From contig NZ_CP062501.1 of the NCBI RefSeq assembly GCF_014879975.1, forward strand, positions 806,001 through 870,000: 64,000 nucleotides of DNA, given 5' to 3'. Source of the DNA: Vibrio bathopelagicus (GTDB lineage Bacteria; Pseudomonadota; Gammaproteobacteria; Enterobacterales; Vibrionaceae). The translations under genes were made by a program, and so were the position numbers. Positions within the stretch are counted from its first letter, which is position 1. Each line of letters begins with the position of its first letter. This document shows positions 36,894-58,566 of the stretch, in pieces. The notes under the pieces were generated by a model. It made no database searches, was not told the origin of the DNA, and was given only the letters and a program-made list of their open reading frames with translations.

Positions 36894-36902
36894 GGATAGG
36901 TT

Positions 36903-38516: not shown

Positions 38517-38545
38517 CTTAATTCAAGATTTTTACGATGCCGAAC

Positions 38546-38582
38546 AAAAAAAGAACGATATTTAACGTATCGTTCTTTTTTT
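38546..38582 (+). terminator. Terminator of the yejABEF operon
   Basis: AAAAAAAGAACGATA (38546-38560) pairs with TATCGTTCTTTTTTT (38568-38582) across a 7-base loop. It is symmetrical in A/T runs, so it may also end the leftward ABC operon that finishes at 38630. Confidence 0.92.
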
Positions 38583-38629
38583 GATTTTAGTTATTGATGA
38601 AGGCTAAGCATTGCATCAAAACATCTAAC

Positions 38630-39727: not shown

Positions 39728-39742
39728 TGTATCCTCACGAAA

Positions 39743-42521: not shown

Positions 42522-42694
42522 GATTAACCTTTTTTAAAAAGTTTAAATTTCGAGTTAGATTATTTACAGTTTATTTCAGTTTTATTAACGATCGATATTT
42601 TTCGCCCTGAAATCATTCGCTGATCACGGAAAGTTTAATAAATCATTGTTTTTAAAGGGTTCTATTTTTTAGGTTTGTGTCCGTATTTCTAGGT

Positions 42695-42724
42695 TGACAC
42701 AAAACCGAGTTGCTATGTATTCTG
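42695..42724 (+). promoter_or_regulatory. Sigma-70-type promoter of the GDPD gene
   Basis: TTGACA (42695-42700) and TATTCT (42719-42724) with an 18-bp spacer, 40 bp before the GDPD start codon. The -35 is a perfect match. The rest of the 42522-42763 region is AT-rich and should hold the leftward promoter of the ABC operon and the ROK-regulator operator, which I could not locate. Confidence 0.7.
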
Positions 42725-42763
42725 TATTAAGCTTTTTAAGGTAGTTTAATTGGTGGGGTGGCA

Positions 42764-43591
42764 ATGTTTACTTTTGATGTGGCAAAACAAGGGCGAATCC
42801 TGGTGAATAGTCATCGGGGGGATTGTATATCGTGTCCTGAAAATACCATGCCAGCATTTCTTAGTGCAGTTGAGCGTGGAACAACCTGTATCGAGATTGA
42901 TATTGCGATGACAGCTGATGAACACCTAGTCGTTATTCATGATCCAAGTGTTGATAGAACTTCAAATGGTACTGGTTATGTTGAACAAATGACGTTGGCT
43001 GAACTAAAAGCTTTAGATTTTGGCGGTTGGTTTCACTCGTCATTTGAAAACACGCCAACCTCCACATTTAGTGAAGTACTTGAGTGGGCGGTTAAACATC
43101 AGCTTGGGTTGATTGTTGAGGCCAAGCAGAGACGTAACCACCATCGATTTGCTGAGCAGTTCACTGCTTTGGTAGAACAAACTCCTAACGCTCTTACACA
43201 TATCCAATTACTGGGTTTTGACCACACCTTAGTCAACCTTGTGAAACAAAGTTTGCCAAATATTCAATTACAAGTGGTAACGCTTGCGCGCTATCAAAAT
43301 CAAATAAACGCAGTGCTGGAATCGAATGCGTCTGCAGTTTGTGTTGAATACCCATATACGACTCAAGCGGTGTTGGAAGAGTACAAAAAATCAGGTTTGA
43401 CTACGCGTTTGTATTTACCGAATAAAGATAAAAATATGAAGCCGACTCAGTGGTTTAACCAATATTATGGTTACGATGTACATAGCGAGATTATTCAATG
43501 GTTGAGGCTTGGTCTCATTGATATGATTAGCCATGACGATATCGATATGTTGAAAGAATTAGTACAAGAGGCCGGTATGGAAGCGATTTAA
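42764..43591 (+). CDS. Glycerophosphodiester phosphodiesterase, UgpQ-like
   Basis: 275 residues, GDPD family TIM barrel. Motifs: NSHRGDCISCPENTMPAF (catalytic His-Arg-Glu, about 16-33), CIEIDIAMTADEHLVVIHDP (Glu, Asp and His, about 44-63), VDRTSNGTGYV and VEAKQRRNHH. No signal peptide, so it acts in the cytoplasm, after import, as UgpQ does. It would split glycerophosphodiesters into glycerol-3-phosphate and an alcohol. The ATG at 42764 follows GGTGGGGTGG; a GTG 6 bp upstream is also in frame. First gene of a GDPD-ROK-2H-phosphoesterase unit opposite to an ABC importer. Confidence 0.9.
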   Translation: MFTFDVAKQGRILVNSHRGDCISCPENTMPAFLSAVERGTTCIEIDIAMTADEHLVVIHDPSVDRTSNGTGYVEQMTLAELKALDFGGWFHSSFENTPTSTFSEVLEWAVKHQLGLIVEAKQRRNHHRFAEQFTALVEQTPNALTHIQLLGFDHTLVNLVKQSLPNIQLQVVTLARYQNQINAVLESNASAVCVEYPYTTQAVLEEYKKSGLTTRLYLPNKDKNMKPTQWFNQYYGYDVHSEIIQWLRLGLIDMISHDDIDMLKELVQEAGMEAI

Positions 43592-43661
43592 TCGCGTACA
43601 TTTCCTAGAGCTAAAAGTAAAACTAAAACCATTAGAAACATTAAATAGAGAAGCACCGAAC

Positions 43662-44786
43662 ATGTTAACTCCGATAAAACCATTACAACTAGAATTAACA
43701 CCAGGGCAGAAAAAACTACTGGCGGTTTGTCGTGAACATCGCTCGGTGCCGCGCGCCAAAATAGTAGAGCAAACAGGTTTGCGCAGCGGTTCTGTTACCA
43801 GTATTTCGAAAGAACTTCTGGCAATGAATATGATTAAAGAAGGGCCTCGTGAAAAAGTTGGGCGAGGTCAACCGATCATCCCATTACAGCTTAATCCGTA
43901 TGCAGCGTTTTCATTTGGTATCGCTTTTCATATTCATCGAATAGAAGTCGCATTAGCGAACTTTTGTGGGGAAGTGATCGACACTGAAATTATGGATTAC
44001 GCAGAAGACTCTCCAATTTCAGAAGTGCTATCGAGCATCAAGCAGAAAATAGACTCGTTGGTAGACAAACATAAAATTCAGAATGCGCGCATTTTGGGTA
44101 TCGGTGTGTCTATGCCGGGTCCGTCTGAAGGCGATGGCAAATCCATTCGTACCATTATTCAAATGGAACATTGGCGCAATGAGGATTTAGCCGTCATTTT
44201 TGGAGAAGTCTTCGAATGGCCAGTTTGGATTGATAATGACTGTAATGTAGCAGCCGTTGGTGAGTTTTATTCTGGACGTTGGCCTGAAGTCAAAAACATG
44301 GTGCTGTTCGAATTGGGTCATGGTGTCGGTGGAGGTGTGATCATCAATCGCAAGCTTTATCGTGGTAGTCGCCATAATGCGGGTGAAATCGGCACTTATT
44401 TCAACCTTTTAGGTGAAGAGAACAAACCAACAATTCGTGGGTTGCTCGAACAGTTGGCAGAGTCTGGGCTCGAAATCGACGGACCAGAAGCGATTCCGGG
44501 GTTAGATAACCTTGTGGTAGCGGAATGGGTCCGTTTTGCTGCTATCCAGCTCAAACCTATGTTGGTTCTTACTTTGGGTTGGTTTGATCCTGACTGCGTG
44601 ATCATTGGTGGCTCTTGTCCTCAGCATATTAGCCAAGCGCTTATTGAAGAAATGGCATTAGAGAAGAGCTGGGTGGAGTTTGAGCGTTCTTATCCTATGG
44701 CTCAGTTCTCGCCTTCAAAAATTGGACCGTCGCTAAATACCTATGGGGCATGTATGTTCCCAGTATTTCGCACGCTAGGTATTTAA
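43662..44786 (+). CDS. ROK-family transcriptional regulator
   Basis: 374 residues. N-terminal winged helix RSVPRAKIVEQTGLRSGSVT (about 27-46) followed by KELLAMNMIKEGP, then a ROK domain with ISMPGPS-type GVSMPGPSEG, the sugar-kinase-like DNDCNVAAVGE and GHGVGGGVIINRKLYRGSRH. The CxCGxxGC zinc site of canonical ROK proteins is replaced by GEIGTYFNLLGEEN, so zinc binding at that place is unlikely. It lies 70 bp after the GDPD gene and probably controls the importer and GDPD operons in response to a sugar-like or polyol-phosphate ligand. Confidence 0.88.
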   Translation: MLTPIKPLQLELTPGQKKLLAVCREHRSVPRAKIVEQTGLRSGSVTSISKELLAMNMIKEGPREKVGRGQPIIPLQLNPYAAFSFGIAFHIHRIEVALANFCGEVIDTEIMDYAEDSPISEVLSSIKQKIDSLVDKHKIQNARILGIGVSMPGPSEGDGKSIRTIIQMEHWRNEDLAVIFGEVFEWPVWIDNDCNVAAVGEFYSGRWPEVKNMVLFELGHGVGGGVIINRKLYRGSRHNAGEIGTYFNLLGEENKPTIRGLLEQLAESGLEIDGPEAIPGLDNLVVAEWVRFAAIQLKPMLVLTLGWFDPDCVIIGGSCPQHISQALIEEMALEKSWVEFERSYPMAQFSPSKIGPSLNTYGACMFPVFRTLGI

Positions 44787-44807
44787 TATAAACATCGGAT
44801 AATTATT

Positions 44808-45482
44808 ATGAAGTATGCACCAAGTGTGGGTGTAAAATTCCATGAAGATGGAAGTGTTAGAACATTCCCTGGTAACACGTTTATTTGTCATTTAGATCAA
44901 TCACTTCCTTTGATTGATGAATTGCGTTGGGCGCAAGATCAGCTAAAAGAAATGAGTTGTGGCAACAAGTTCTCATTCTTGCCAATTTCAAGCATGCACA
45001 TGACGGTATTTGAAGGTGTGTGCGACCAGATTCGAGATCCAAAAAAGTGGACGTCTAAACTGAGCCTAGATTCTGAATTGTCGGCTATTACAGATTTGTT
45101 TGCCACTGAAGCTAGCCAAATTGGTGCACAAGGCGGTTTCGAAATGGAATTCGACTATGTATACAATTGCCCCATTGGTGGTAGTGCGCTTCGAATAAAA
45201 CCAGCTAATGAGCAGTCGCGCCTTGCATTGAAACGATGCCGTGAGTTACTTAAAGTTGCGACTGGAATCAACATGCCTGACTTTGATGACTATCATTTTC
45301 ATATCACTTTGAGCTACCGCGTTATAGAGTTGGAAGAGCAAGATAAGGTTGAATTACAAGAGACCACGAAGCGTATAGGTGAGCGCATAGCTCAGTCGTT
45401 TGGTTCTTTGACGCATGGTCCTGTGGAGTTTTGTACTTTCCAAGATATGTTCAAGTTTATTCCTGTTATCAAACTATCGTAG
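44808..45482 (+). CDS. DUF1868-type 2H-phosphoesterase-like protein
   Basis: 224 residues. Two H-x-T motifs, SSMHMTVFEG (His about 63) and YHFHITLSYR (His about 164), are spaced like the paired HxT/S motifs of the 2H phosphoesterase (LigT/2'-5' RNA ligase-like) superfamily. The N-terminal GVKFHEDGSVRTFPGNTFIC is typical of DUF1868 proteins. Such enzymes open cyclic phosphodiesters. It is the last gene, 21 bp after the ROK gene. Together with GDPD it may process imported cyclic or linear phosphodiesters; the substrate is unknown. Confidence 0.75.
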   Translation: MKYAPSVGVKFHEDGSVRTFPGNTFICHLDQSLPLIDELRWAQDQLKEMSCGNKFSFLPISSMHMTVFEGVCDQIRDPKKWTSKLSLDSELSAITDLFATEASQIGAQGGFEMEFDYVYNCPIGGSALRIKPANEQSRLALKRCRELLKVATGINMPDFDDYHFHITLSYRVIELEEQDKVELQETTKRIGERIAQSFGSLTHGPVEFCTFQDMFKFIPVIKLS

Positions 45483-45522
45483 TTTTAGGTTTAAAAAATC
45501 TCTAAGATCTTTATCTGATTTG

Positions 45523-45560
45523 AGCTCATGCGTCGTTGGTACGGCGCATGAGCTTTTTTA
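45523..45560 (+). terminator. Terminator of the GDPD-ROK-DUF1868 operon
   Basis: AGCTCATGCG (45523-45532) pairs with CGCATGAGCT (45545-45554) and is followed by TTTTTATTTT. Confidence 0.92.
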
Positions 45561-45768
45561 TTTTCTACAGTTTATATTTGTAATTGATATGTAACCTAAT
45601 AATTACCCTTAAATTATTTTCAATCTAACCTATTGATTGTATTGAGCTTATCATTCGTATCTTGTTGTCTAATTGTAAGCTAATGTAGGTAAATGTAACC
45701 ATTTGACTACTTTATTTTATTGATTAAATTGATGAAATATTGCTTTAAATGGAATTTGGCTAGTTAGA
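45561..45768 (+). promoter_or_regulatory. Control region of the peptide-importer operon
   Basis: 208 bp, very AT-rich, between the terminator at 45523 and the first permease gene. It contains the TGTA direct repeats listed separately and another TGTA pair at 45579 and 45590 (11-bp spacing). A precise -10/-35 pair was not assigned. Confidence 0.6.
45674..45697 (+). promoter_or_regulatory. Three TGTA half-sites with exact 10-bp period (RstA-box-like)
   Basis: TGTA occurs at 45674-45677, 45684-45687 and 45694-45697, on the same face of the helix. TGTAGGTAAATGTA (45684-45697) matches the reverse complement of the E. coli RstA box (TGTAACNANATGTA) at all but two fixed positions. The array lies 72-95 bp before the importer operon. 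An RstA-like response regulator is encoded 11 kb downstream. The repeat is seen directly; its owner is inferred. Confidence 0.5.
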
Positions 45769-46794
45769 ATGATTGCATATTTATTGAAACGTTTTGTTTT
45801 AGTTGTACCTACGTTTCTTGGTATTACGATTTTGATATTCGCGATTACGCGTTTTGTCCCTGGAGGCCCTGTTGAGAGGATGCTGGCTAATATGCAGCCT
45901 CAAGGGGATGGTGGTGGCGCGTCTAGTCTCGTTGGCCAAAATTCAGCTCTGTCTGAAGACCAGTTGGCTGATCTTAATAAATTCTATGGGTTAGATAAGC
46001 CAGTTACTGAAGCGTACATTGAGTGGCTGATTCGTTTGGTTCATTTTGACCTAGGGGAATCGACTCGCTACTACGAACCTGTCAGTGACATGATTTTTGA
46101 GCGCCTACATGTCTCCGTTATGTATGGCGGTGTGACCTTTTTCATTAGTTATTTCATCTCAATCCCGCTTGGCTACTTTAAGGCCATGAAGCATGGCAGC
46201 GTTTTTGATTCCGCCTCATCAATCATGATTTTTGTCGGTTATGCCTTGCCAGGATATGTCGTAGGTGTACTCCTCATTACGTTTTTCAGTTATCACTTGG
46301 AGTGGTTTCCAATGGGCGGCTTTGTTGATGATGACTTCGATGATCTCAATACGTTTACTGAGCAAATTTCCGATATTTTGTGGCATGCCGTCTTACCTTT
46401 GCTGTGCTATTTGATTGGGGATTTCGCAACACTGACTATGACAATGAAAAACAATCTGATGGAAAACTTATCATCGGATTACATTCGTACTGCGATAGCT
46501 AAAGGTTTGCCTTTCAGAGAAGCGATTCGTAAACACGCGCTACGCAACAGTCTAATTCCAATCGCCAGTCACTTTGGTAATTCTCTTCTTTTCTTCATGA
46601 CGGGCTCTTTCTTAATTGAGGTCATTTTTGATATCAACGGTATAGGTCTACTTGGTTATGAATCCATTGTAGAAAGAGACTACCCAGTGGTTATGGGTAT
46701 TGTTGCAATCAACGCTTGTATCTTACTGCTTGGCAATATCTTGTCAGATGTCTGCGTTGCATTGGTAGACCCTAGAGTGAAGTTTGGAGCTTGA
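45769..46794 (+). CDS. Peptide ABC permease 1, YejB/DppB-like
   Basis: 341 residues with six helices, BPD_transp_1 family. N-terminal MIAYLLKRFVLVVPTFLGIT, a large loop with a Gly-rich stretch QPQGDGGGASS (about 43-53), and the EAA loop AIAKGLPFREAIRKHALRNS (about 243-262). It is clearly related to the YejB at 34751 but diverged. First gene of a five-gene operon permease-permease-binding protein-ATPase-ATPase. Its stop codon overlaps the start of the next gene. Confidence 0.9.
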   Translation: MIAYLLKRFVLVVPTFLGITILIFAITRFVPGGPVERMLANMQPQGDGGGASSLVGQNSALSEDQLADLNKFYGLDKPVTEAYIEWLIRLVHFDLGESTRYYEPVSDMIFERLHVSVMYGGVTFFISYFISIPLGYFKAMKHGSVFDSASSIMIFVGYALPGYVVGVLLITFFSYHLEWFPMGGFVDDDFDDLNTFTEQISDILWHAVLPLLCYLIGDFATLTMTMKNNLMENLSSDYIRTAIAKGLPFREAIRKHALRNSLIPIASHFGNSLLFFMTGSFLIEVIFDINGIGLLGYESIVERDYPVVMGIVAINACILLLGNILSDVCVALVDPRVKFGA

Positions 46795-47840
46795 TGATGA
46801 TTAAATTAAATCCGTTAACGCTAAAACAGATCAAGCGGTTCAAACAAATAAAGCGTGGATATTGGTCGCTCATCATTTTATCTGTGATGTTGTTGTTGTC
46901 TCTGTTTGCTGAAGTGTTGATTAACAGTAAGGCTTTAGTGGTTCGTTATCAGGGGGAATATTACTTTCCGATCCTCTCCGATGTTTACTCTGGTAAAACA
47001 TTTGGTTTGGAATCGTCAGGAGAAGCAAACTATCGACTACTTCAATTAGCGCTTCAAGATAAAAACAATGGTGACTTTGCGATTTTACCCGTGGTGCCTT
47101 GGAATCCGTACGAACAAGATTTTTCTGGCGAATACCCACCGCATGCTCCGAGTGCTTACTCAAAGCACTATTTAGGCACGGACGTAATTGGTAGGGACAT
47201 TTTAGCTCGACTGGTTTATGGGTTTAGAACAGCAATGGGATTTGCCCTGATAACTATGGTCATTGCATACAGTATTGGTGTAACGGTGGGGTGTGCGATG
47301 GGTTTCTTTGGTGGCAAGTTTGACTTAATTGTTCAGAGAGTCATTGAGACTTGGTCGATGGTTCCATTCCTCTACGTGATTATGATTTTAGTCTCGATAG
47401 CACAGCCAACTTTCATACTATTCGTGTTGATCAATGTGACCTTCGGATGGATGGGCATTACTTGGTATATGCGAACGATGACGTACAGAGAATCGGCTCG
47501 AGAGTATGTGCTAGCAGCGAAGGCTTTGGGGGCATCAACAGCAAGAATCCTCTTTCATCATATTTTGCCTAATACCATGGTAATGATCGTTACTTTGGCT
47601 CCTTTTACTATTGCAGCAAATATCACCGCACTCACAGCTCTGGACTATTTAGGTCTGGGTCTCATTCCGCCGACTCCTAGTTGGGGGGAGCTTCTTCAGC
47701 AAGGTAAATCAAACCTCGACTCCCCATGGATTGTTGGTTCTGTTGTGACGGCAATTGTCGGTGTTTTGGTCATGGTGACTTTCATTGGTGAAGCAATCAG
47801 AACGGCCTTTGATCCCAAAAAATACACAGTTTATAGATAA
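46794..47840 (+). CDS. Peptide ABC permease 2, YejE/DppC-like
   Basis: 348 residues. Helix 1 at about 20-40, long periplasmic loop with LPVVPWNPYEQDFSGEYPPH, then GTDVIGRDILARLVYGFRTA as in YejE. EAA loop AAKALGASTARILFHHILPN (about 238-257). ATG codons occur at 46794 and 46797; GGAG at 46786 suits both, the second slightly better. The stop of the upstream gene shares one base with the first ATG. Confidence 0.9.
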   Translation: MMIKLNPLTLKQIKRFKQIKRGYWSLIILSVMLLLSLFAEVLINSKALVVRYQGEYYFPILSDVYSGKTFGLESSGEANYRLLQLALQDKNNGDFAILPVVPWNPYEQDFSGEYPPHAPSAYSKHYLGTDVIGRDILARLVYGFRTAMGFALITMVIAYSIGVTVGCAMGFFGGKFDLIVQRVIETWSMVPFLYVIMILVSIAQPTFILFVLINVTFGWMGITWYMRTMTYRESAREYVLAAKALGASTARILFHHILPNTMVMIVTLAPFTIAANITALTALDYLGLGLIPPTPSWGELLQQGKSNLDSPWIVGSVVTAIVGVLVMVTFIGEAIRTAFDPKKYTVYR

Positions 47841-47856
47841 GCACTAGGAAGTGATG

Positions 47857-49680
47857 ATGTACAAATATGGACTATTCGCTTTGTTGTTGAGTTTTCTAGC
47901 TCAAGCACAGCAAACACCAGACAACTTGGAATGGCATAGCAATTGGAATGAGCCCGTTTTTGCTTCTGAAGAGGCTAAGCGTGGCGGCACTTTGCGTAGC
48001 TTTATGGCTAGTTTCCCACAAACGTTACGTTCAGTAGGGCCTGATGCGAATTCTGGTATTCGTTTCTATTTAATGGATGGCACGCCTAAATTGGCACAGC
48101 GACATCCAAATACCAATAATTGGATTCCGCAGCTGGCGAATGAATGGGCATTTGGAGACGATCACAAGACGGTCTATTTCAAATTGAACCCTGATGCAAA
48201 GTGGTCGGATGGATTGGCGGTAACTGCTGATGATTATTTGTTTATGCTTACTTATTATCGATCGAGAGACATTATCGACCCTTGGTATAACGATTTTTTC
48301 CGTAACAGTATCGAGACAGTGAAAAAGTTCGATGACTACACCATCAGTATCACAATGGCAGAGCCAAAAAGTAATGATGAGTTGATGGCGCTTATCAATA
48401 TGCCAAGCCATGGCGTGCAGCCACGACCACAACATCATTTTGTTGGCATCAATGATGAGAACAACGACGGAATGGATGACAACTTTGTACGCAAATACAA
48501 TTTTAAGTCAGAGCCAACAACGTCACCTTATTACATCTCGAAAGTAAACAAGGGCCGTAGTATCACGTTTTCTCATGTTGGCGCGAACTGGTGGGGTTAC
48601 GGGAACAAATATTATAAGAATCGTTTTAACGTCGAGAAGCTTCGTATCAAGGTGATTCGTGATAGTGATATAGCTCGCAAGCACTTTGAAAAAGGTAAGT
48701 TAGACACATTCGCTATGATTCAGCCTCAACTATGGCATGAGAAAAGTAATTCAGAACCGTTTAGTAACGGATTTATCCAGAAGTTTTGGGGGTTTAACCA
48801 ACGACCACAAGGCGCTGGTGGATTATGGATTAATACTTCAATGCCATTGCTAAATAATATCAATATTCGAAAAGGCATTACGTACGCGACTGATTTCGAC
48901 GGCATGATCAAAAATGTATTAAGGGGTGACTATTCTCGAAAGCCTCACGCTATGGGGTTCGGACATGGTAAATACGATTTAGAAGGTGTAGAGCCACCAC
49001 CGTTTAGACCTGAACTTGCTATCGGTTATTTTGAATCTGCAGGTTTCGATAACATCGGTCCTGATGGTATCCGCATGAATGATAAAGGTGTCCGCCTGAG
49101 TTTCAAGATTACCTATGGCTACAATATCTGGACATCAAGGATTGCCTATCTAAAAGAGCAAGCGAAGCTAGCGGGTCTAGAGCTAGACCTGAATCTTGTT
49201 GATGGCTCCGCTGCCTTCAAATTTATTCTAGAGAAGAAGCATCAACTCGCTTTCCTCAATATGGGAGGAGGGGAGATTCCAGCATACAAAGAATACTTTC
49301 ATTCAACCAATGCAAATCGTCCTCAAACCAACAGCCATACCAACTTCAGTTCACCCGAGCTGGACGAAGAGATCGATGCGTTCATTTCGGAGTTTGATGT
49401 AGAAAGAAAGCAGCAGCTATCTCAGAGTATTCAAAGAAAAATAAAGGATGCTTACGTGATTGTGCCTGGCTATATGGTGCCTTATACGCGAGATGCTCAT
49501 TGGCGTTGGGTCAAGTTCCCTGCGACTCCGATGACGAAGAAGACTGGTGCGATGTTTAATATCTTGGATACCAGTAACTTTTGGATAGATACCGACGTTA
49601 AAAAAGAGACTCAATTGGCTTACAAAGAAGGCAAAGCGTACCCGCCAATCACTATTATTGATGATCGTTATAAGCTCTAA
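47857..49680 (+). CDS. Periplasmic peptide-binding protein, YejA-like, second system
   Basis: 607 residues, SBP_bac_5 family. Signal peptide MYKYGLFALLLSFLAQAQ, then WHSNWNEPVFASEEAKRGGT and LNPDAKWSDGLAVTADDYLF, the conserved start of the oligopeptide-binding fold. Compared with YejA at 32843 it is shorter and differs widely, so it may bind another peptide class. Of the in-frame GTG (47851) and ATGs (47854, 47857), the last has the best spacing to AGGAA. It lies just upstream of two ATPase genes and, further on, a large surface protease that could release its ligands. Confidence 0.9.
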   Translation: MYKYGLFALLLSFLAQAQQTPDNLEWHSNWNEPVFASEEAKRGGTLRSFMASFPQTLRSVGPDANSGIRFYLMDGTPKLAQRHPNTNNWIPQLANEWAFGDDHKTVYFKLNPDAKWSDGLAVTADDYLFMLTYYRSRDIIDPWYNDFFRNSIETVKKFDDYTISITMAEPKSNDELMALINMPSHGVQPRPQHHFVGINDENNDGMDDNFVRKYNFKSEPTTSPYYISKVNKGRSITFSHVGANWWGYGNKYYKNRFNVEKLRIKVIRDSDIARKHFEKGKLDTFAMIQPQLWHEKSNSEPFSNGFIQKFWGFNQRPQGAGGLWINTSMPLLNNINIRKGITYATDFDGMIKNVLRGDYSRKPHAMGFGHGKYDLEGVEPPPFRPELAIGYFESAGFDNIGPDGIRMNDKGVRLSFKITYGYNIWTSRIAYLKEQAKLAGLELDLNLVDGSAAFKFILEKKHQLAFLNMGGGEIPAYKEYFHSTNANRPQTNSHTNFSSPELDEEIDAFISEFDVERKQQLSQSIQRKIKDAYVIVPGYMVPYTRDAHWRWVKFPATPMTKKTGAMFNILDTSNFWIDTDVKKETQLAYKEGKAYPPITIIDDRYKL

Positions 49681-49693
49681 GGACGAATGATTA

Positions 49694-50563
49694 ATGAATC
49701 AAAATGTTGTACTAAAAGTTCGTGATCTAGAAGCTGAATTCAGTACTGATGACGGCATCGTCAAAATACTAAAAGGTGTGTCATTTGATGTGAAATCAGG
49801 ACAAACCTTAGGTTTAGTCGGGGAGTCCGGAAGTGGAAAGAGCGTAACTTCAATGTCGATTATGGGGTTACTTCCGAAGCCTTATGGAAAGGTCACGGCT
49901 GGGCAGATAATTTATCGCGATACGGACCTTACAGACGTGCCTGAACACGAGATGCACAAGATGCGTGGCAATCGTATTTCAATTATTTTTCAAGACCCTA
50001 TGACTGCCTTAAACCCCGTCCAGACAATTGGGAAGCAAATTGTTGAGGTTCTTGACTTGCACCATAGCCAGATGTCTAAGTCTGAAAAGGTCGCATATGC
50101 GGTAGGTTTGCTTGAAAAAGTAGAAATTCCTATGCCAAAGCTGCGCTTCAAAGAGTATCCACATAGTTTATCGGGTGGAATGCGACAAAGGGTAATGATT
50201 GCTATAGCACTTGCGTGTAAACCTGACATTTTAATATGTGATGAACCTACGACAGCATTAGATGTGACGGTTCAAGCATCAATTTTAGAACTGATCAGAG
50301 AGCTTCAAAACGAGACTGGGATGGCGGTTATCTTTATCACCCATGATTTAGGTGTGGTTGCGGAGATCTGCGATGAGGTTGCTGTGATGTATGACGGACG
50401 TATTGTTGAACATGCAGAGATTTTCGAACTTTTTGATCACCCACAGCACCCGTATACCAAAAGGTTATTGAGTTTAATCCCTGACCTTAACGTTAAGCCA
50501 AAGCAAACCATTCAAATTAATCCAATTGATTTGAATGAATTCCCAGAATACAAGGGGAGTTGA
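49694..50563 (+). CDS. Peptide ABC ATPase, DppD-like
   Basis: 289 residues. Walker [11 protein letters not shown] (about 38-47), Q-loop IIFQDPMTALNP, signature LSGGMRQRVMIAIAL, Walker [15 protein letters not shown]-loop FITHDLGVV, and a C-terminal HPYTKRLLSLIPDL segment typical of the oligopeptide family, although the usual cysteine cluster near that place is missing. Its stop codon lies 3 bp before the start of the DppF-like gene. Confidence 0.92.
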   Translation: MNQNVVLKVRDLEAEFSTDDGIVKILKGVSFDVKSGQTLGLVGESGSGKSVTSMSIMGLLPKPYGKVTAGQIIYRDTDLTDVPEHEMHKMRGNRISIIFQDPMTALNPVQTIGKQIVEVLDLHHSQMSKSEKVAYAVGLLEKVEIPMPKLRFKEYPHSLSGGMRQRVMIAIALACKPDILICDEPTTALDVTVQASILELIRELQNETGMAVIFITHDLGVVAEICDEVAVMYDGRIVEHAEIFELFDHPQHPYTKRLLSLIPDLNVKPKQTIQINPIDLNEFPEYKGS

Positions 50564-50565
50564 GT

Positions 50566-51399
50566 ATGTCAGAAGTCATTAGAATCGAAGGACTGGAACA
50601 GCACTTTTTATCAGGTAAAAGTCTGTTTAAGAAAGGCTATGTCATTAAGGCTGTCGATGGTGTTTCATTTTCAGTGAAGCAAGGTGAAACATTGGGGTTG
50701 GTCGGTGAGTCTGGCTGTGGAAAAAGCACTCTTGGCAGAACATTACTCAAACTTTATGAGCCGTCGGCAGGAAAAATATTTTTTGAAGGCGAAGATATTA
50801 CCCGTTACAGCCCAAAAAAAATGCGTCCACTTCGTAGAGAAATGCAGATTGTATTTCAGGACCCTCTTGAGTCACTGAACCAGAGGCACACAGTAGGAGG
50901 GATACTCGAAGAGCCTTATGTAATTCATGGTATTGGCTCGAAAAAAGAGCGAAAAGCATGGGTTTTAGAACTATTAGATAAGATTGGATTACCTCACTCT
51001 TCTACAAACCGTTACCCGCACGAGTTCTCTGGGGGACAAAGACAGCGAATTGGAATTGCTAGGGCAATTGCTTTAAAGCCGAAGTTACTTATTTGTGATG
51101 AATCCGTGTCAGCATTGGATGTATCTGTACAGGCTCAGATATTAAATCTGTTGTTGAAAATACAAAAAGAGATGAATCTATCAATAATTTTTATTTCACA
51201 CGATTTGTCAGTGGTGAAACATATTTCAGATAATGTAGTCGTTATGAAACAAGGAAAGATTATTGAGTTTGGAACTGTAGATGATGTTTATAATAATCCA
51301 AAAGAAGAATATACAAAATCGTTATTATCGTCGATTCCAATAACACATCCATCTCAAAGGAAGAAAATAAAAACAACGAGGTTAGCTAAACAGGCTTAA
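50566..51399 (+). CDS. Peptide ABC ATPase, DppF-like
   Basis: 277 residues. Walker A GESGCGKSTLG (about 49-59), Q-loop IVFQDPLESLNQ, signature [15 protein letters not shown], Walker B LLICDESVSALDV (Ser for Pro after the catalytic Glu, as in many DppF/OppF), H-loop FISHDLSVV. The ATG at 50566 follows AAGGGGAG; a TTG at 50560 is also in frame. Last gene of the importer operon. The C-terminus ends in a basic tail SQRKKIKTTRLAKQA. Confidence 0.92.
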   Translation: MSEVIRIEGLEQHFLSGKSLFKKGYVIKAVDGVSFSVKQGETLGLVGESGCGKSTLGRTLLKLYEPSAGKIFFEGEDITRYSPKKMRPLRREMQIVFQDPLESLNQRHTVGGILEEPYVIHGIGSKKERKAWVLELLDKIGLPHSSTNRYPHEFSGGQRQRIGIARAIALKPKLLICDESVSALDVSVQAQILNLLLKIQKEMNLSIIFISHDLSVVKHISDNVVVMKQGKIIEFGTVDDVYNNPKEEYTKSLLSSIPITHPSQRKKIKTTRLAKQA

Positions 51400-51454
51400 A
51401 ACTGGAAAAAGAAAATGTAGATATAATACGGAAGTGTAATACAAGAAGGAAAAT

Positions 51455-52294
51455 ATGAATAAACTACTTATGTTGCCAGCGTTTATGCTGGTGGCGCCTT
51501 CGCTCGCCCTAGCAAATAATTTGCAAGATGAGTGGGAGTCTAAAAATAATGAAAATCCTTGGTCTGGATATATTAGTGCTGATTACTCTCGAAATGGATA
51601 CGAAGACAGTGCGTCTTTAGCAAACCGTTCTGCTTCTGCAACAGGAGTAGTTCGATACTCGTTTTCGGACAAATCTCGACTCCAAGTTGTGGCGTCAGGT
51701 TATCACTTATATGACGGTGATGAGTATGGGACAAGAGGACAGTTCTGGAACGATACATCCATTTCATGGGGGCGTAATGGGTTATTTAAGCCAACTGATG
51801 GTTCATCACTCAGTGGTGAAGTACGAATCATCTTGCCGACATCTAAATGGTCAAGGAGGAATGATTTAACGTTAGGCACAAGAGCAAAGCTTAGGTGGAG
51901 CGCCCCATTCGACAATTTGATTGAAGGGCTTTCATTAAGTAACACATTATTGCTTAGGAAAAACTTTCACGAATATAAAACAGCTGGTGGAAATCAACTT
52001 ATTGAGTATCAATTAAGTAGCCAATTTTCTCTTGATTATGTTTTTGCAGAAGACTTTTATTTCAACATTTTCTTAATGCCTAGACAGTCATGGGATTATA
52101 ACGGAGACACGTTTGATCCAACCTTATTACATGGTGAAGAAGTAGGTTACCAAATAACTAATAGTGTCTCTATTTCCGCTGGTTTAACTAATGGGATTAG
52201 TTATTACAACCCAGAAAGAGGCTCAAACCCTCTTAATGATTTAGTTGATTTGAAGAAAACAACTTATTACGCAGTACTTAACTACCAATTCTAA
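51455..52294 (+). CDS. Outer-membrane beta-barrel protein, probable porin
   Basis: 279 residues. Signal peptide MNKLLMLPAFMLVAPSLALA, then alternating polar/hydrophobic strands with many aromatic residues, ending YYAVLNYQF, the C-terminal Phe signal for outer-membrane insertion. The size would suit a 10-14-strand barrel. No named family is recognised; a KdgM- or OmpG-like monomeric channel is possible. It sits between the peptide importer and the lipoprotein protease, so it may let protease products cross the outer membrane. A TATAAT-like -10 is visible near 51423, so it may have its own promoter. Confidence 0.75.
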   Translation: MNKLLMLPAFMLVAPSLALANNLQDEWESKNNENPWSGYISADYSRNGYEDSASLANRSASATGVVRYSFSDKSRLQVVASGYHLYDGDEYGTRGQFWNDTSISWGRNGLFKPTDGSSLSGEVRIILPTSKWSRRNDLTLGTRAKLRWSAPFDNLIEGLSLSNTLLLRKNFHEYKTAGGNQLIEYQLSSQFSLDYVFAEDFYFNIFLMPRQSWDYNGDTFDPTLLHGEEVGYQITNSVSISAGLTNGISYYNPERGSNPLNDLVDLKKTTYYAVLNYQF

Positions 52295-52366
52295 TATTGC
52301 TCCGTTCGCATTGAATTCGGATAGTTGAAATAAGAAATGTAATATAATTATAAATATAGGTAAATT

Positions 52367-55300
52367 ATGTTTAAACACGCAATTATCGCAGCAAGTATTA
52401 CTGCAATACTCAGTGGGTGTGGGGCCGAAGATCGTGCCTATGACACTTATGAAAAACCAACCGAAGAGATTGCAGTCCAATCTTTAGATACTGAATCTCT
52501 TTGGATGTATATGCCGTCAACTGGCGAAGCTCCTCGCTACGCAATGACTCAGCGCGGTTTTTTCCAAGGTGATCCGAAATTAGTAACGCTTCGTTTTGAT
52601 GAAACTAATGGTATTTATGTCGAAGAAGTTGATCGCGATAAAGTGAATTCGACGGATGACAGTCGCTGGGATACAGAGATAAACCGCGCCCCTGTTCTTA
52701 AAATCCCTGGCGAATTCCGCCAGTATCGCTGTGCTGAAAACGGCTATGGTGAATGTACAAACAAAGAAGAAATTAACTCTGATGAAGACGTGTCTTGGAG
52801 CCAAGCCACACACTTTGTGCCCAAATATGAAGAGATTAAATCACTATCTCAAGACACCATCAGAGCTTGGTACACCTCAAGTAATGTTACGGAGTCTGCA
52901 GAACCACGTTTGATTTCTTATGAATACGATCCTGAGGGCGGGGTGATTAACGTTGAAGTTGAGCGAACCTTTACTGCTGAAGCGGAAGATCAATATCAGT
53001 TTGGTGGAGAGCTTAAAGACTTATCATTTAAAACACGTTTTTTCTATTCTCTAGTTAAGCTCGATAAGTTAACAACTAAAGATTATGAACCTGTCTATTA
53101 TCAAGGGCAAGACAGCGCGTACTTTGGTTTCTTTAACGACAGTAAAGAGGTTAAAACCCACACTGGCGAAAGTAACGTGCAAGGCTCTCGTTTCTCTTAT
53201 ATCAACCGATTTAACCCAAATCTAGACTCGATAGACTACTACTTGAGTGATAGTTACTTCGATGATGGTAACGAAGCGTACTTACAGCTTACTATTGATA
53301 CCATGGACGAGGTAAATCAGTCTTTAGAAGGAACTGGTGTACCACGCATAAACATTGTCAATAGTGACAAGAAAGCGGGTGTGCAGACCGGTGATCTACG
53401 CTACAACGTGTTTAATCTCATTACCGATCCTGTCGATAATGGTCTGCTTGGTTACGGTCCATCTGCTACTAACCCATTAACGGGTGAAATTATTCATGCA
53501 CACGTTAACCAATACCTAGGTGTTATTCGCTCAGCAAGTCGCCATACATGGAATGATCTTGCCAAGCGCTATAATCGCCAAGAAATAGCTAAAGTTGAGC
53601 CTGTTGTTGAAGCAGCGAAAAGCAATGCTTCGCAATTGAATACAGAGCCAACTGAGATTGATTTATTCAACAAGATGATGGAGCAAGATCAAGGGCCTGC
53701 GGTCGATGTTCCCGTGTTGAGTGAACGTGAAATTGATCTAGTGAGCAAAGATAAGCTAGCCAGTTCGCTTCCTAAAGCCGATTTGGACTTTAAGTTTGAC
53801 ACCTCTAATCAAGATCTCGCATTGCAGTCGTTCTACAAACGCCAAGACATGTTGAAACGGTTCTCTGAGCAGAACGTATATAGCGTCGATGCGATGTGGT
53901 TGAGTACTCAATCAAAGGGGTTGGTTAAAGGTCTAGATTATGCTCAAGGTGGTTTCTTTTCCGACGCTGAACAAAATAAAATCAAGGTATGGGAAGAGCT
54001 GACGATTGATCAGCAAAAGCTAGCAAGCCAAGCGATTTCCAAGCACATGTTCAAGTCAACATTGATACACGAACTCGGGCATAACCTTGGGCTACGTCAT
54101 AATTTTATGGGTTCAACAGATGAGAGCCACTTCTATACAGCATCTGAATTGGCGCAGAGCAAAATTGGGCATCTTGATAAGCCTGCGGCCTACAGCTCCA
54201 TCATGGATTATGGCGCATCAATATTTGATGAGCTCTTGACGTTCGGTAAGTACGATAAAGCAGCTTTACGCTTTGCTTATGCTCGTCAGGTCGAAACAAA
54301 TGAGCTCGTCGTTAACACCAATAACAAAGGCGAAAGTATCGCTGAGCTTGACGCTACTGGAGCACAAAAGCACAAACTTTATTCACTGGCTGAGTATGAC
54401 CGTCAACTGACTAATGACTATAAAGCTTATCCAACGGGAGTTATTGCTCACCTTAGAGCTAACGTTGGTCAAGGTGGTATCCCCGATTCATTAGTTAGTT
54501 ACCGTTATTGTACGGATGAGCACACGACCACTAATTTGCTATGCGATCGTTTCGATGAAGGTACGAGCCTTCAAGAAGTCACTGAGTTTAGAATTCAGCG
54601 ATACAAAGATAGCTACGAAACTGTTAACCAGAGAAATGGGCGTGAGCGTTTTGAACAGTTTCACCAATATAGTTATTTCCTATATCGAATGGGAGAGTTC
54701 CAAAAAATCCGCGATATCGTCGAAAATGTCGGTGAAATTGATTTCATGTTTGCTCGTTATTTAGGCGCAAATACGACGAATAACAAGGGACAAGTTTTTG
54801 AAGAAATAGCCGGAAACAACTGCGTGGACTTTAGAGGTAACGCAATTCCATTAGAAAATTTGTCTGCGGGTGTTCGCCCAATTTGTGATACCTACAACGC
54901 AGCGAACTTGGCAGCAGACTTCTTCTTAGACGTGCTAACAGCACCAGATAAAGTGTGTGAGTTAGAAGAATTGAGTGGCGTTGTTGGAGTCCCTAACCGC
55001 TATCGTTTCGCTAAGCTGTCTGATCTTTGGTTAACTTACCAAGGTGGCATGTCACAGAATCGAGATGTACCAACCAGCTGTTTTGATGAAGAATTAGTTC
55101 AAATGCTTGCAAGCCAAGCGAACGAAATTGTCATTCGTTCTGAAACTCGTGATGGAAAAGTATGGGCTAGTTTAAAAGCGAACAACCCTTATCAAACATC
55201 TTCTTCTTCTGTGGATTTATTGGGTGTGTGGCCTGATAAGTTGTTAGCCGCGCAGATGTTAGTTAGACGTGATACGCCATTTAAATCAACCGAGAACTCG

Positions 55301-56314
55301 AGTTTGGCTTTGGTTGATATGTCAGACAAAATTAGTCATTTATATACTTATCTATCGGATTTAACGGGTAGAGCTGAAGCTCGTCAGGCTATTTTTGTCA
55401 ACGGAAATGGGGACTACACTGAAACGGTTCTGAAATATAAGCAAGATATTACCGAAACGATTGAAGCGACCCCTTCCTATTTGTGGCCAATGAAACGTTA
55501 TTTCTCGATGGGAGGAAACGAAGCGTTTGTTTATTGGACTGAAGGGGCTCAACAAGATACTAAAGTTCCGTATTTCGGTACGCTTCTGAAGAACTTAAAC
55601 AAATACAATCGAGCAAATGAGTATGGTTTGAGTGACTCTGTATCTGGGTTTAGCGACTCTATCCACATCAACTATGCGAATAGTAGTTTTGCTGACAAAG
55701 ATGGGATAAATTTTACTTGGAAAGGGACAAACTATTCATTGAGTTCACGTAACACGTTGGCAAATGCTTTAGCTTCACGCGCTTTGTATAAAGAAGATCA
55801 AAAAGCACGAGTCGATAAATTGAATGGTTTGCCATATCGAGTTCGTAATGCACTTTCTGTGTTTAAGAATACTCGAGATCGTAACGAGGCACGTATTATC
55901 GCTGTCGGTGATAAGCAGGCTCTTGTCGCTCTTCGAGATACTACAGGATTCGCGCGTTGGACTATGTTTGATAACCAATTTGAAGAATATGACGAAGATG
56001 GTGAGAAATGTTTACGATTTAAAGTAGACGGTGAATCCACTGAAGATCATATGAAACGTAAGTGTAACCCTCAGTCAAGCTTGCAAACAGTACAGAATAG
56101 TTCGATTGGTAAATTTGAAGATGAAGAGCACGACCGTATATTCGATTTGGCGCAAATCTTTGGTAACCAGATAGCGGATAACAACACCAGTTCGACGAAT
56201 GCTGCTCATAAAGAAGTGTATAACTACGACCCTGAAGAGTTGAGGTTATGGAGCTCGAATGAATACGCAAACTATCGCCGAGCATTTGAACAGTTCCCTG
56301 TTTATGATGACTAA
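52367..56314 (+). CDS. Giant lipoprotein zinc metalloprotease (metzincin)
   Basis: 1315 residues. Type II signal MFKHAIIAASITAILSGCGA with the lipid cysteine at residue 18, so it is membrane-anchored on the periplasmic or outer face. The zinc site HELGHNLGLRH (His568, His572, His578, Glu569) and the Met-turn SIMDYGA (Met613) identify a metzincin. The flanking FMGSTDESHFYTASE and LGLRHNF resemble the DUF4953/DUF5117-type zinc-dependent metalloproteases of marine bacteria. The first 500 residues and the last 600 have no recognised domain. A strong terminator follows. The neighbours, a porin, a peptide ABC importer and a two-component system, suggest that it cuts extracellular or envelope peptides. 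Confidence 0.85.
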   Translation: MFKHAIIAASITAILSGCGAEDRAYDTYEKPTEEIAVQSLDTESLWMYMPSTGEAPRYAMTQRGFFQGDPKLVTLRFDETNGIYVEEVDRDKVNSTDDSRWDTEINRAPVLKIPGEFRQYRCAENGYGECTNKEEINSDEDVSWSQATHFVPKYEEIKSLSQDTIRAWYTSSNVTESAEPRLISYEYDPEGGVINVEVERTFTAEAEDQYQFGGELKDLSFKTRFFYSLVKLDKLTTKDYEPVYYQGQDSAYFGFFNDSKEVKTHTGESNVQGSRFSYINRFNPNLDSIDYYLSDSYFDDGNEAYLQLTIDTMDEVNQSLEGTGVPRINIVNSDKKAGVQTGDLRYNVFNLITDPVDNGLLGYGPSATNPLTGEIIHAHVNQYLGVIRSASRHTWNDLAKRYNRQEIAKVEPVVEAAKSNASQLNTEPTEIDLFNKMMEQDQGPAVDVPVLSEREIDLVSKDKLASSLPKADLDFKFDTSNQDLALQSFYKRQDMLKRFSEQNVYSVDAMWLSTQSKGLVKGLDYAQGGFFSDAEQNKIKVWEELTIDQQKLASQAISKHMFKSTLIHELGHNLGLRHNFMGSTDESHFYTASELAQSKIGHLDKPAAYSSIMDYGASIFDELLTFGKYDKAALRFAYARQVETNELVVNTNNKGESIAELDATGAQKHKLYSLAEYDRQLTNDYKAYPTGVIAHLRANVGQGGIPDSLVSYRYCTDEHTTTNLLCDRFDEGTSLQEVTEFRIQRYKDSYETVNQRNGRERFEQFHQYSYFLYRMGEFQKIRDIVENVGEIDFMFARYLGANTTNNKGQVFEEIAGNNCVDFRGNAIPLENLSAGVRPICDTYNAANLAADFFLDVLTAPDKVCELEELSGVVGVPNRYRFAKLSDLWLTYQGGMSQNRDVPTSCFDEELVQMLASQANEIVIRSETRDGKVWASLKANNPYQTSSSSVDLLGVWPDKLLAAQMLVRRDTPFKSTENSSLALVDMSDKISHLYTYLSDLTGRAEARQAIFVNGNGDYTETVLKYKQDITETIEATPSYLWPMKRYFSMGGNEAFVYWTEGAQQDTKVPYFGTLLKNLNKYNRANEYGLSDSVSGFSDSIHINYANSSFADKDGINFTWKGTNYSLSSRNTLANALASRALYKEDQKARVDKLNGLPYRVRNALSVFKNTRDRNEARIIAVGDKQALVALRDTTGFARWTMFDNQFEEYDEDGEKCLRFKVDGESTEDHMKRKCNPQSSLQTVQNSSIGKFEDEEHDRIFDLAQIFGNQIADNNTSSTNAAHKEVYNYDPEELRLWSSNEYANYRRAFEQFPVYDD

Positions 56315-56344
56315 ACAGAAAGTGCTTGGATAACTCATAAATTG

Positions 56345-56379
56345 AACCGGCTTCCTTACTTAAGGCGGCCGGTTTTTTT
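56345..56379 (+). terminator. Terminator of the metalloprotease gene
   Basis: AACCGGC (56345-56351) pairs with GCCGGTT (56368-56374) with an inner CCTTA/TAAGG helix, followed by a T-run. It lies 30 bp after the stop codon, so the two-component genes beyond must have their own promoter. Confidence 0.88.
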
Positions 56380-56550
56380 GAGTATAAAATTAAGAGCTTT
56401 TGGTCTATTTTTAGCTGCATTGTCTTTTATTTATATGTTATATAGATGTTTTTGTTATTTTTATAAATAGAAGCTATGTAATAAGAATGTGCTGAATTTC
56501 GAAATAAAGAGGCGGTTCGCAAGGTAGCAAAGGAATGGTGAGAAGGATTT

Positions 56551-57258
56551 ATGACCAACCCGAAACTAGTGATCGTAGAAGACGATCCTATCTTAAGAGA
56601 GATGTTACAGGAGTACTTTGAAAGCCAATCTTTTGAAGTGGTCACTATTTCTGATGGGGCATCAGCATGTGAACAAATTCTATCGATTCAGCCTGATATT
56701 GTCCTGCTTGACCTCATGCTTCCAGAAGTTGATGGGCTGACCATTTGTAGGCAAGTAAGGAGTAAATTTAATGGAAAAATACTCATTCTAACGGCTAGTG
56801 ATGATGATTTTGATCATGTTGCCGCTCTAGAAACGGGGGCCGATGATTTTATTAGCAAGCCTGTTCGTCAACGAGTCTTACTTGCGAGAGTACGGATGCT
56901 TTTACGTCGTGCGCCGGAAAGTTCAATAAGCTCTGAGGTGAGCAGTAGAAACGAGTTGGTTTTTGGTAAATTGAGTTTAAATCGTACTACCAAAGGTTGT
57001 AGACATGCTGGTCACGATGTATCCATAGCTGAAAGCGAATTTGAACTACTCTGGTTGCTGGCTTCTTCTCCTGAGCAAGTGCTTTCACGTAACTTCCTTA
57101 CTCAAGAGTTGAGAGGTGTCGATTACGATGGCATTGATCGTTTTATCGACAATAAAATCGTAATTTTACGCAAAAAACTCAACGACATAACCGTCCCTCC
57201 TAAAAAGATCATCACCGTAAGAGGTAAAGGCTACTTGTTCGTACCTGAACGCTGGTAA
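56551..57258 (+). CDS. OmpR-family response regulator, RstA-like
   Basis: 235 residues. Receiver domain with the acidic pair E10-D11-D12, phosphorylated D54 in LLDLMLPEVDG, T81 and K103; then a winged helix (about 135-232) with DVSIAESEFELLWLLASSPE and LRGVDYDGIDRFIDNKIVIL, where the RstA-type LRGxxYDG pattern is visible, ending TVRGKGYLFVPERW. The RBS is GAGAAGGATTT. It lies 236 bp after the protease gene and 18 bp before the kinase gene, and probably controls the neighbouring protease and importer genes. A TGTA-repeat box before the importer supports this. Confidence 0.92.
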   Translation: MTNPKLVIVEDDPILREMLQEYFESQSFEVVTISDGASACEQILSIQPDIVLLDLMLPEVDGLTICRQVRSKFNGKILILTASDDDFDHVAALETGADDFISKPVRQRVLLARVRMLLRRAPESSISSEVSSRNELVFGKLSLNRTTKGCRHAGHDVSIAESEFELLWLLASSPEQVLSRNFLTQELRGVDYDGIDRFIDNKIVILRKKLNDITVPPKKIITVRGKGYLFVPERW

Positions 57259-57276
57259 CGGTAGCTGAATAATTAA

Positions 57277-58566
57277 ATGCGACGTATCTATTTTGAATAC
57301 TTAGCGGGACTTACCGTTATCTTCTTAGTGAGTATATATTCTTATGCTTTTATCGTTTACAAGTTAAGCACCGACTACGAATACATACTACGAGATCATC
57401 AAGCTGAAGCTTATCAAGAGCTGATTGATGTGGTTTACCGCGAAAAAGGTTTGCTTGAAACGCAGAAACTTTTAAAACGTTACGCGGATAAGACTCGGCA
57501 GAACCTGCGAATCATACCTTTTGATAACGCGCCTGAATTAGTGCGGAAAGCCTTTCAGCAACAAGGCCGAAATGTTTACTACCATGACGAATACTTCCTT
57601 TGGTTAAGGTTGGTTGGAAGTGATGAGTTATATGAGTTATCTAAGAACAAAGATTCTTATCTGAGGAAGCAAATCAAGTTTGAAAACCGGCTTATTTGGG
57701 TTTTTGCCATAACTGGTTTTGCGTTTAGTGGCCTGTTTTTAGTTTGGAGAATAAAGCGCCGACTAAACAATCTTGAAATGGCGACAGTGGCTTTTTCTCA
57801 TGGTGATTTATTAGAGCGGGCATCTGAGAAGAACAGCATAAAATTGGGGACGTTGAACCGCAGCTTTAATGTCATGGCAGACAAGATAAGAGATTTAATC
57901 AATAGTAATAAGTCTTTGACTAACGCGGTAGCACATGAGCTAAGAACCCCAATATTTCGGATTCAGTGGCAGGCAGAGTTGTTGAGTGATTTAGCGCCGA
58001 CCGAGCAGCAGTCTAAGGCTATAGCTCGTATTCTTGCGGATACTGAAGAAATGGAAGACATGGTTGATGAGCTACTATATTACGCTCGCTTAGAAAGGGG
58101 AGGCTTTGAATTACTTAAGCAACCTATTGACGCCAATGAATGGTTAAACGAGCGTTTTAGTATCTGGGAGAAAGAGACAACACTCGACCTCATCAAGGTT
58201 CCATTAAAAGTCCCTGCATCTTTCCATGTTGATCTAAAATTATTCAATAGGGCGGTGGATAACATCGTGAGGAATGCTTTCAAGTTTGCTGACACCAAGA
58301 TAGTGATTGAGCTGTGGTATACCGACAATGAATTTGTTATTGAAGTTCATGACGATGGTAAAGGAGTTGAAGCTGAGCATTGGCCATATTTATTTGATCC
58401 TTTTTATAGTGCTAATGCCGCGAGAAACAAGGGGAAAACGGGGCATGGCTTAGGGCTGGCAATCGTCAAACAAGTCTGTGACCGTCACCAAGCACATGTC
58501 ACTGTTGGTGAAAGTTACTTGGATGGTGCGTGTTTTGCCTTGTCGTTTCCTCGGCTCGAGCTATAA
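57277..58566 (+). CDS. Sensor histidine kinase, RstB-like
   Basis: 429 residues. Helix 1 at about 8-30, a short periplasmic sensor of about 115 residues (ending near the YELSKNKDSYLRKQI stretch), helix 2 at about 144-162, HAMP (about 163-215), HisKA with H220 in NAVAHELRTPIFRIQW, and HATPase_c with DNIVRNAFKFAD (N box), VHDDGKGVEAEHW, and GHGLGLAIVKQV. The small sensor is like that of RstB. It probably senses an envelope or extracellular signal linked to the protease/importer neighbours. Cognate partner of the upstream regulator. Confidence 0.92.
   Translation: MRRIYFEYLAGLTVIFLVSIYSYAFIVYKLSTDYEYILRDHQAEAYQELIDVVYREKGLLETQKLLKRYADKTRQNLRIIPFDNAPELVRKAFQQQGRNVYYHDEYFLWLRLVGSDELYELSKNKDSYLRKQIKFENRLIWVFAITGFAFSGLFLVWRIKRRLNNLEMATVAFSHGDLLERASEKNSIKLGTLNRSFNVMADKIRDLINSNKSLTNAVAHELRTPIFRIQWQAELLSDLAPTEQQSKAIARILADTEEMEDMVDELLYYARLERGGFELLKQPIDANEWLNERFSIWEKETTLDLIKVPLKVPASFHVDLKLFNRAVDNIVRNAFKFADTKIVIELWYTDNEFVIEVHDDGKGVEAEHWPYLFDPFYSANAARNKGKTGHGLGLAIVKQVCDRHQAHVTVGESYLDGACFALSFPRLEL

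Follow-up and report, generated by a model that had tools for sequence, protein, structure and literature searches.

The locus described here lies at positions 45769–58566 of a 64,000-nucleotide stretch of Vibrio bathopelagicus DNA (NZ_CP062501.1, positions 806,001 to 870,000; hereafter the window). It consists of nine genes that are all open and all on the + strand, as a preliminary description had stated. The first five encode an ATP-binding cassette (ABC) importer: a YejB-like permease, permB (45769–46794; BPD_transp_1, 5.9e-35), a YejE-like permease, permC (46791–47840; BPD_transp_1, 6.3e-29), a family-5 periplasmic binding protein, SBP (47851–49680; SBP_bac_5, 2.7e-49), and two ATPases with ABC_tran and oligo_HPY domains, the OppD-like atpD (49694–50563) and the OppF/DppF-like atpF (50560–51399). 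These are followed by the genes for a predicted 12-strand outer-membrane barrel protein, OMP (51455–52294), and its partner METZ (52367–56314), a 1315-residue lipoprotein metzincin of the DUF4953 family. The last two genes encode an RstA-like response regulator of the OmpR family, RR (56551–57258; Response_reg/Trans_reg_C), and an RstB-like sensor kinase, HK (57277–58566; HAMP/HisKA/HATPase_c). Pfam and NCBIfam bear out the families first assigned to the permeases, binding protein, ATPases, metzincin, regulator and kinase. Chance open reading frames (ORFs) are ruled out by the Pfam matches and by conservation in other genera and families.

The nine genes probably form two transcription units, a permB–METZ operon and a separate RR–HK unit, because a terminator precedes permB, a hairpin with a T-run follows METZ, and a gap of 236 bp separates METZ from RR. 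Gaps within permB–METZ range from -4 to 72 bp. The terminator of the preceding genes (45522–45555, + strand) has a stem of 15 pairs and then a T-rich tail, and is read as strong. The putative terminator after METZ (56345–56379, + strand) has an AACCGGC/GCCGGTT stem, which is preserved through paired changes in an alignment of 13 loci, judged by eye. This hairpin is absent from the output of the automatic terminator scan, its loop of 16 exceeding the 3–8 that the scan permits. Ahead of permB is a promoter-like sequence (TTGACT-16-TAAATT, 45703–45730, + strand) that agrees with the consensus at 9 of 12 positions; promoter-like sites as a class are not enriched in the region, with 27 found against 31.4 in shuffles. 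Upstream of it lies a TGTA-N6-TGTA-N6-TGTAAC box (45674–45699, + strand), a putative RR site by its resemblance to the RstA box and its conservation.

METZ carries all the sequence features first reported for it: a lipobox (LSGC followed by G), the zinc motif HELGHNLGLRH and a Met-turn. It passes the gathering cut-off of the DUF4953 Met-zincin profile PF16313 (30.6 bits, cut-off 24.2), and this profile is matched by 35 of 35 METZ family members at E <= 0.01. Residues H568, E569, H572, H578 and M613 are invariant in 35 of 35 aligned sequences. The main locus set consists of 75 METZ ORFs in 71 loci, with METZ fragments counted as separate ORFs, and includes one locus from another family of the order (L083) and two plasmid-collection records (L111 and L112). 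The zinc motif HExxHxxGxxH occurs in all 75 of these ORFs and in 16 of 16 METZ from other genera, and the Met-turn pattern in 72 and 16, respectively. The lipobox pattern search missed 12 of the 75, nine of which have LYGC and three of which are without an N-terminus. Most members of the family are lipoproteins of 1150–1720 residues. Under the Lol rule, glycine at position +2 directs a lipoprotein to the outer membrane; METZ would be placed there because its +2 residue is glycine. Its proteolytic activity and surface exposure are likewise predicted. Similarity to Peptidase M66 (PF10462, the StcE/TagA type) barely exceeds the cut-off (21.1 bits, cut-off 20.6) and extends over just 47 of the 306 positions in the profile, around the zinc motif, and the model for BF0631-type metalloproteinase lipoproteins (TIGR03952) falls far below its own (19 bits, cut-off 208.1). 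Database entries for METZ relatives are labelled 'EcxA zinc-binding domain' or 'zinc-dependent metalloprotease', and some 'MoxR-like ATPase', 'ATPase' or 'M66 family'. The organisms named include Ferrimonas, Aeromonas, Photobacterium, Aliivibrio and Grimontia. In some species the family is common; a 90%-identity cluster named after V. parahaemolyticus has 2416 member sequences.

OMP is 279 residues long and ends in the C-terminal phenylalanine noted earlier. Its predicted model is a barrel of 12 strands, counting the listed elements 95–98 and 101–111 as one. The window OMP has no Pfam match at E <= 1; among 29 OMPs at this threshold, one matches Phenol_MetA_deg and two match OMP_b-brl. No sequence match was found in the PDB, even with a profile of the 29 sequences.

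The tightest unit of the locus is the near-inseparable OMP–METZ pair. METZ was matched in 52 of 227 same-genus genomes, and removing a weak match to a different protein of 862 residues (G086) leaves 51. The OMP profile matches the same 51 genomes and none of the other 176, so the protease–barrel linkage proposed earlier holds well. These genome searches scored first-look candidates only (at most two METZ and ten OMP per genome), and absences are not absolute. METZ was matched in 22 of 394 genomes of the order at E <= 1e-10, two of these being weak matches to proteins of ~860 residues; in the same-genus search, weak partial matches to proteins of this size were dropped. A class-level draw of 274 genomes gave one match, the window's own genome, and a scan of a contig collection gave one locus, from V. 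crassostreae; a phage collection gave no match.

For 56 of the 75 main-set METZ ORFs, the gene immediately upstream is OMP. The 19 exceptions are of three kinds. Eleven have OMP ahead of the importer or are a second METZ (L081, L082, L103–L105, L107, L108), with the OMP of L081, L107 and L108 found at or just past the end of the fetched stretch. Five are cut, broken or interrupted: by the end of a contig (L037), by a DDE transposase gene between the two genes (L044), or by a break in OMP or METZ (L047, L064, L112). The last three have no OMP nearby (L106, L109, L110). In the 16 other-genus loci OMP is directly upstream of METZ in 13, downstream in one (L187) and cut by a contig end in two; adjacency is usual in other families of the order as well. 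Signs of decay were observed in several loci, with stop codons in SBP and HK of L046, a split OMP in L047 and L112 and a split METZ in L064.

The importer is related to Yej-type systems. The best NCBIfam matches of the permeases are YejB for permB and a microcin C (YejE-type) permease for permC, both below the curated cut-offs (271.7 against 445 bits and 277 against 439 bits). Two separate ATPase genes stand in place of the fused YejF, whose model gives 297.6 against 834 bits. Solved relatives of SBP include YejA (1e-11) and MbnE (1.7e-8), and a chitin-oligosaccharide binding protein is also among the matches. The best of them is labelled oligopeptide-binding (4jsd, 2o7i), although we take it to be a Thermotoga sugar binder.

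Both permeases are present in the fetched stretch of 52 of the 71 main-set loci, and in 47 an importer gene adjoins OMP or METZ. The order importer–OMP–METZ is found in the window and most loci, OMP–METZ–importer in L059–L063 and OMP–importer–METZ in L082 and L103–L105. A non-orthologous importer follows METZ in L065 and L074. Among the 16 other-genus loci an importer occurs in three, on the opposite strand and three to four genes off in L177 and L180, and as a distant importer after METZ–OMP in L187. The window's 5.67-Mb genome has 14 SBP_bac_5 matches. Judged from these gene orders, the repeated linkage exceeds chance, because by our own estimate a random 20-kb stretch would hold SBP_bac_5 ~5% of the time and the arrangements differ.

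SBP relatives at E <= 1e-60 occur in 93 of the 227 genomes, including 49 of the 51 with METZ. Among 20 stretches fetched around such related binding proteins, seven carry a paralogous importer, with a TonB-receptor-like gene and not METZ beside it (L133, L136–L138, L143, L146, L148), followed in six of the seven by a DUF3450-like gene; domains were checked in L136 (TonB receptor, DUF3450, ExbB) and L133 (receptor) only. That the importer is paired with OMP–METZ in some loci and with a TonB receptor in others suggests that each partner provides a route through the outer membrane. Seven other stretches (L129–L132, L142, L144, L145) have a lone binding protein near a gene read as pyrF, and the remaining six have an importer with neither of these features. 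The lone binding proteins are full-length and share ~67% identity with the SBP of the window; neither a permease nor an ATPase was detected adjacent to them, and their site beside pyrF is where other species carry the whole importer–OMP–METZ cluster.

Further peptidases accompany METZ in relatives. An M42 aminopeptidase of 356 residues lies inside the cluster in five loci (Pfam E ~1e-109 in the two scanned). In two loci tested (L106, L109), which have no OMP and no importer nearby, METZ is followed by an S8 subtilase whose start resembles a lipobox. These peptidases point to a peptide cargo, although the probable sugar binder that is the best solved match of SBP tells against certainty, and the peptide processing first proposed for the locus gains in part from them.

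The RR DNA-binding domain matches that of RstA (4nhj, 5.8e-21), and the best NCBIfam models, RstA for RR and RstB for HK, are below their equivalog cut-offs (218.7 against 330 bits and 218.2 against 478 bits). The pair is confined to one lineage. An HK orthologue (75–100% identity, other kinases reaching at most 51%) occurs in 13 of the 227 genomes, exactly those with METZ at 72–100% identity to that of the window. In the METZ stretches that were fetched, orthologues of RR and HK occur only in 12 loci of group A (the window type) and in L111; other, distant two-component genes are found in L060, L079, L080, L100, L101 and L181.

In all 13 loci with linked RR–HK, the TGTA-N6-TGTA-N6-TGTAAC box stands directly before TTGACTAC upstream of permB. 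The latter sequence does not vary among the 13 orthologous loci, and the DNA farther upstream has diverged. The TGTA triple is found once in the window against 0.01 expected. The triple followed by AC is present in all 13 regulator-bearing genomes; 12 have a single copy, and the window's own genome has two. The second of these (G000:C1:2161498-2161523, L191) lies ~0.1 kb upstream of where a DUF535 gene probably starts. In 39 other importer loci, the 300 bp ahead of permB contain no such box (the stretch being cut in L081 and L107); L111, a further locus of the RR–HK type, has it. Four related genomes that also carry a locus of the RR–HK type have, in their second METZ loci (L078, L088, L091 and L092), a variant triple, TGTA-N6-TGTA-N6-TGTA, upstream of OMP in antisense orientation; a scan of the whole stretches of the METZ loci found the triple nowhere else than in these four and the RR–HK-type loci.

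The RstA box, TACATNTNGTTACA, contains TACA in tandem (PMC4117788); on its opposite strand TGTA recurs with the 10-bp period seen in the box described here. By this resemblance only, an RstA-box-like tandem site is present at the target promoter in 13 of 13 loci, so that the earlier tie between the linked regulator and the operon acquires a plausible predicted binding site. The predicted transcriptional control by RR would be activation rather than repression. A different regulator, of 256–271 residues with an HTH_26 domain, flanks the unit in 14 loci without RR–HK from two families of the order (L055–L063, L065, L074, L083, L177, L180; domain checked in four). The recruitment of two unrelated regulators by one unit suggests that the unit needs dedicated control.

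The history of METZ differs from that of the importer. Group A METZ is sister to group B METZ, and the group A importer proteins (in a tree built from permB, permC and SBP) are sister to group C. The METZ data reject A+C (p-AU, approximately unbiased test, 2e-58) and the importer data reject A+B (p-AU 4e-70); these are quick trees under a homogeneous model with long-branch warnings, and the groups were named after the first tree was seen. Group C consists of 25 loci with four METZ subtypes, 30–37% identical between and 47–100% within subtypes, and their distribution on the importer tree requires at least 7 changes against a minimum of 3. Subtype S2 has its own OMP clade, and the other subtypes share OMPs.

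In the clearest pair of these loci, L078 and L088 are highly similar in permB (98%), permC (95%), SBP (96%), atpD (94%), atpF (92%) and OMP (94%), but their METZ are only 34% identical. Their DNA similarity (87%) continues to METZ nucleotide 79, just beyond the lipobox. After this only two short patches are alike (149 bp at 67% and 65 bp at 78%), until similarity returns at 91% from 86 bp after the stop codon. An independent case is found in another family, where L177 and L180 have OMPs that are 88% identical and METZ that are 36% identical. Here the break falls at nucleotide 92 and similarity is back 213 bp after the stop codon, bar one 74-bp patch. In 15 same-genus pairs compared, METZ identity is 33–34% in eight and 48–75% in seven. 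Our reading of this pattern is that the mature METZ was replaced through recombination within the conserved stretch encoding the signal peptide; given the sharp edges, extreme divergence in situ is a less likely alternative. METZ may then be a serotype-like, exchangeable specificity cassette with at least four divergent alleles, for which the importer and often the barrel are kept, and whose exchange would re-target prey proteins or escape recognition. We give this an even chance of being correct.

The gene content, the co-occurrence of OMP and METZ, the importer linkage, the conserved box and the exchange of alleles, all established at the level of sequence, can be brought together in a regulated protein-scavenging system that works by surface proteolysis, entry through a barrel and ABC import; whether the locus encodes such a system is in our view an evenly balanced question. 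METZ, lipid-anchored in the outer membrane, would cut protein outside the cell or in the envelope, and OMP would admit the fragments to the periplasm and perhaps also hold METZ. SBP and the ABC importer would then carry oligopeptides into the cell. Flux through OMP, the peptide cargo and transport itself are predictions of this scheme. In the window's lineage the RstAB-like pair would switch on the permB–METZ operon through the tandem TGTA box. METZ is the exchangeable part, swapped for divergent alleles, and probably sets which protein is attacked, because it is METZ that is swapped while the importer and often the barrel remain.

Several observations weigh against a scavenging system. In 19 of the 71 main-set loci the fetched stretch contains no importer permeases (among these, L037 is cut by a contig end and L083 shows SBP and ATPases at the edge), and the same holds for 13 of the 16 other-genus loci, some cut by contig ends; METZ therefore need not feed this ABC importer. 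The importer type is found also in 44 of the 176 same-genus genomes without METZ. The METZ model (pLDDT 75, moderate; the C-terminal 315 residues left out) has no Foldseek match at E < 0.001. V. tapetis encodes members of the METZ family, and the excerpt available of a study of its secretome reports no metalloprotease (PMC4234667), which fits either a cell-bound enzyme or a silent one.

The nine genes as a single conserved unit, the form in which the preliminary description presented them, are ruled out by the optional importer and by a kinase orthologue limited to 13 of 227 genomes. Conserved linkage was recovered for OMP–METZ throughout and for the importer within the genus, where it recurs in several gene orders; the importer is rarely linked in other genera. 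The two-component genes lie apart from the rest in most related genomes and do not belong to the conserved unit.

Among other explanations, the most serious is that OMP is a biogenesis or docking partner that displays METZ on the surface and the importer just a frequent neighbour. We take it seriously because OMP tracks METZ rather than the importer, but consider it unlikely on balance. METZ of subtypes S1, S3 and S4 is exchanged while OMP stays, so a docking partner must tolerate very different clients. In addition, importer genes stand between OMP and METZ in the arrangement of L082 and L103–L105, and three METZ loci have no OMP nearby. Defence against antimicrobial peptides is a poorer prospect. 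METZ would cut such peptides, the Yej-like importer would remove them, and the RstAB/CarSR-like sensor would detect peptides of a host or competitor. DUF535 is linked to antimicrobial-peptide resistance, and the sole second box copy of the window's genome is near a DUF535 gene; however, that copy occurs in one of 13 genomes. The importer has YejABEF among its relatives, and CarSR of V. cholerae is a sensor of alpha-defensin 5 that binds a potential RstA box (PMC9178039). The regulator pair is nevertheless restricted to one lineage (13 of 227), and the clustered M42 aminopeptidase better suits nutrition. That the cargo is an oligosaccharide or glycopeptide, with METZ attacking glycoproteins, is very improbable: family-5 binding proteins do include sugar binders (e.g. 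the chitin-oligosaccharide protein among the solved matches), OMP resembles the sugar porins KdgM, NanC and VhGalP and the M66 score of METZ is marginal, but no glycosidase model was matched among the few neighbours scanned and relatives carry the M42 peptidase.

Upstream of the locus, a second peptide-type ABC importer (32843–38516) consists of an SBP_bac_5 protein, two permeases and one fused ATPase, and looks nearer the canonical Yej arrangement. Its fused ATPase gene adjoins permB in nine of 12 group A relatives. The two genes are adjacent in V. crassostreae (L043); in the window they are separated by ~7 kb (38517–45500) containing an SBP_bac_8-type ABC importer, a GDPD-like gene (by eye), a ROK regulator and a 2H-phosphodiesterase-like gene.

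Protein is a major source of nitrogen and carbon in the sea and in animal hosts, and the coupling of surface proteolysis to peptide uptake in Vibrio is poorly mapped in the literature searched. Among the matches listed from open-access literature, none describes the function of DUF4953 metzincins, the OMP–METZ pair, its importer linkage, the swap of regulators or the exchange of METZ alleles. Through the comparisons made here the DUF4953 family acquires a barrel partner that is almost obligate, an importer that is often present, regulators of two alternative kinds and a predicted operator. If the reading of allele exchange is true, METZ acts as a specificity module in the way that antigen or receptor loci do, which is unexpected for a presumed nutritional enzyme.

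Each component of the locus belongs to, or lies near, a known kind. The importer has its permease and binding-protein superfamily in common with the YejABEF peptide/microcin C importer, but differs in its two separate ATPases (YejF being fused), in scores below the cut-offs and in the protease and barrel alongside. RR and HK match RstA and RstB best, and the box, like the RstA box, is a tandem TGTA/TACA site with a 10-bp period; however, the window operon has three half-sites rather than two, and RR–HK are linked to one operon. A second, unlinked RstB-like kinase of 46% identity is present in the window's genome. In its predicted model, OMP has the 12-strand barrel fold in common with the KdgM/NanC porins and the COG4313/FapF channels, but it is without a sequence match to the solved structures. 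SusCD/TonB-type loci combine surface hydrolysis, outer-membrane entry and an importer, and the likeness of the present locus lies in this combination; no TonB receptor, plug or SusD domain was found among the nine window genes by Pfam, and in their place is a 12-strand barrel without a Pfam family. METZ, finally, is a member of the DUF4953 metzincins, and its family is almost always accompanied by a barrel of its own.

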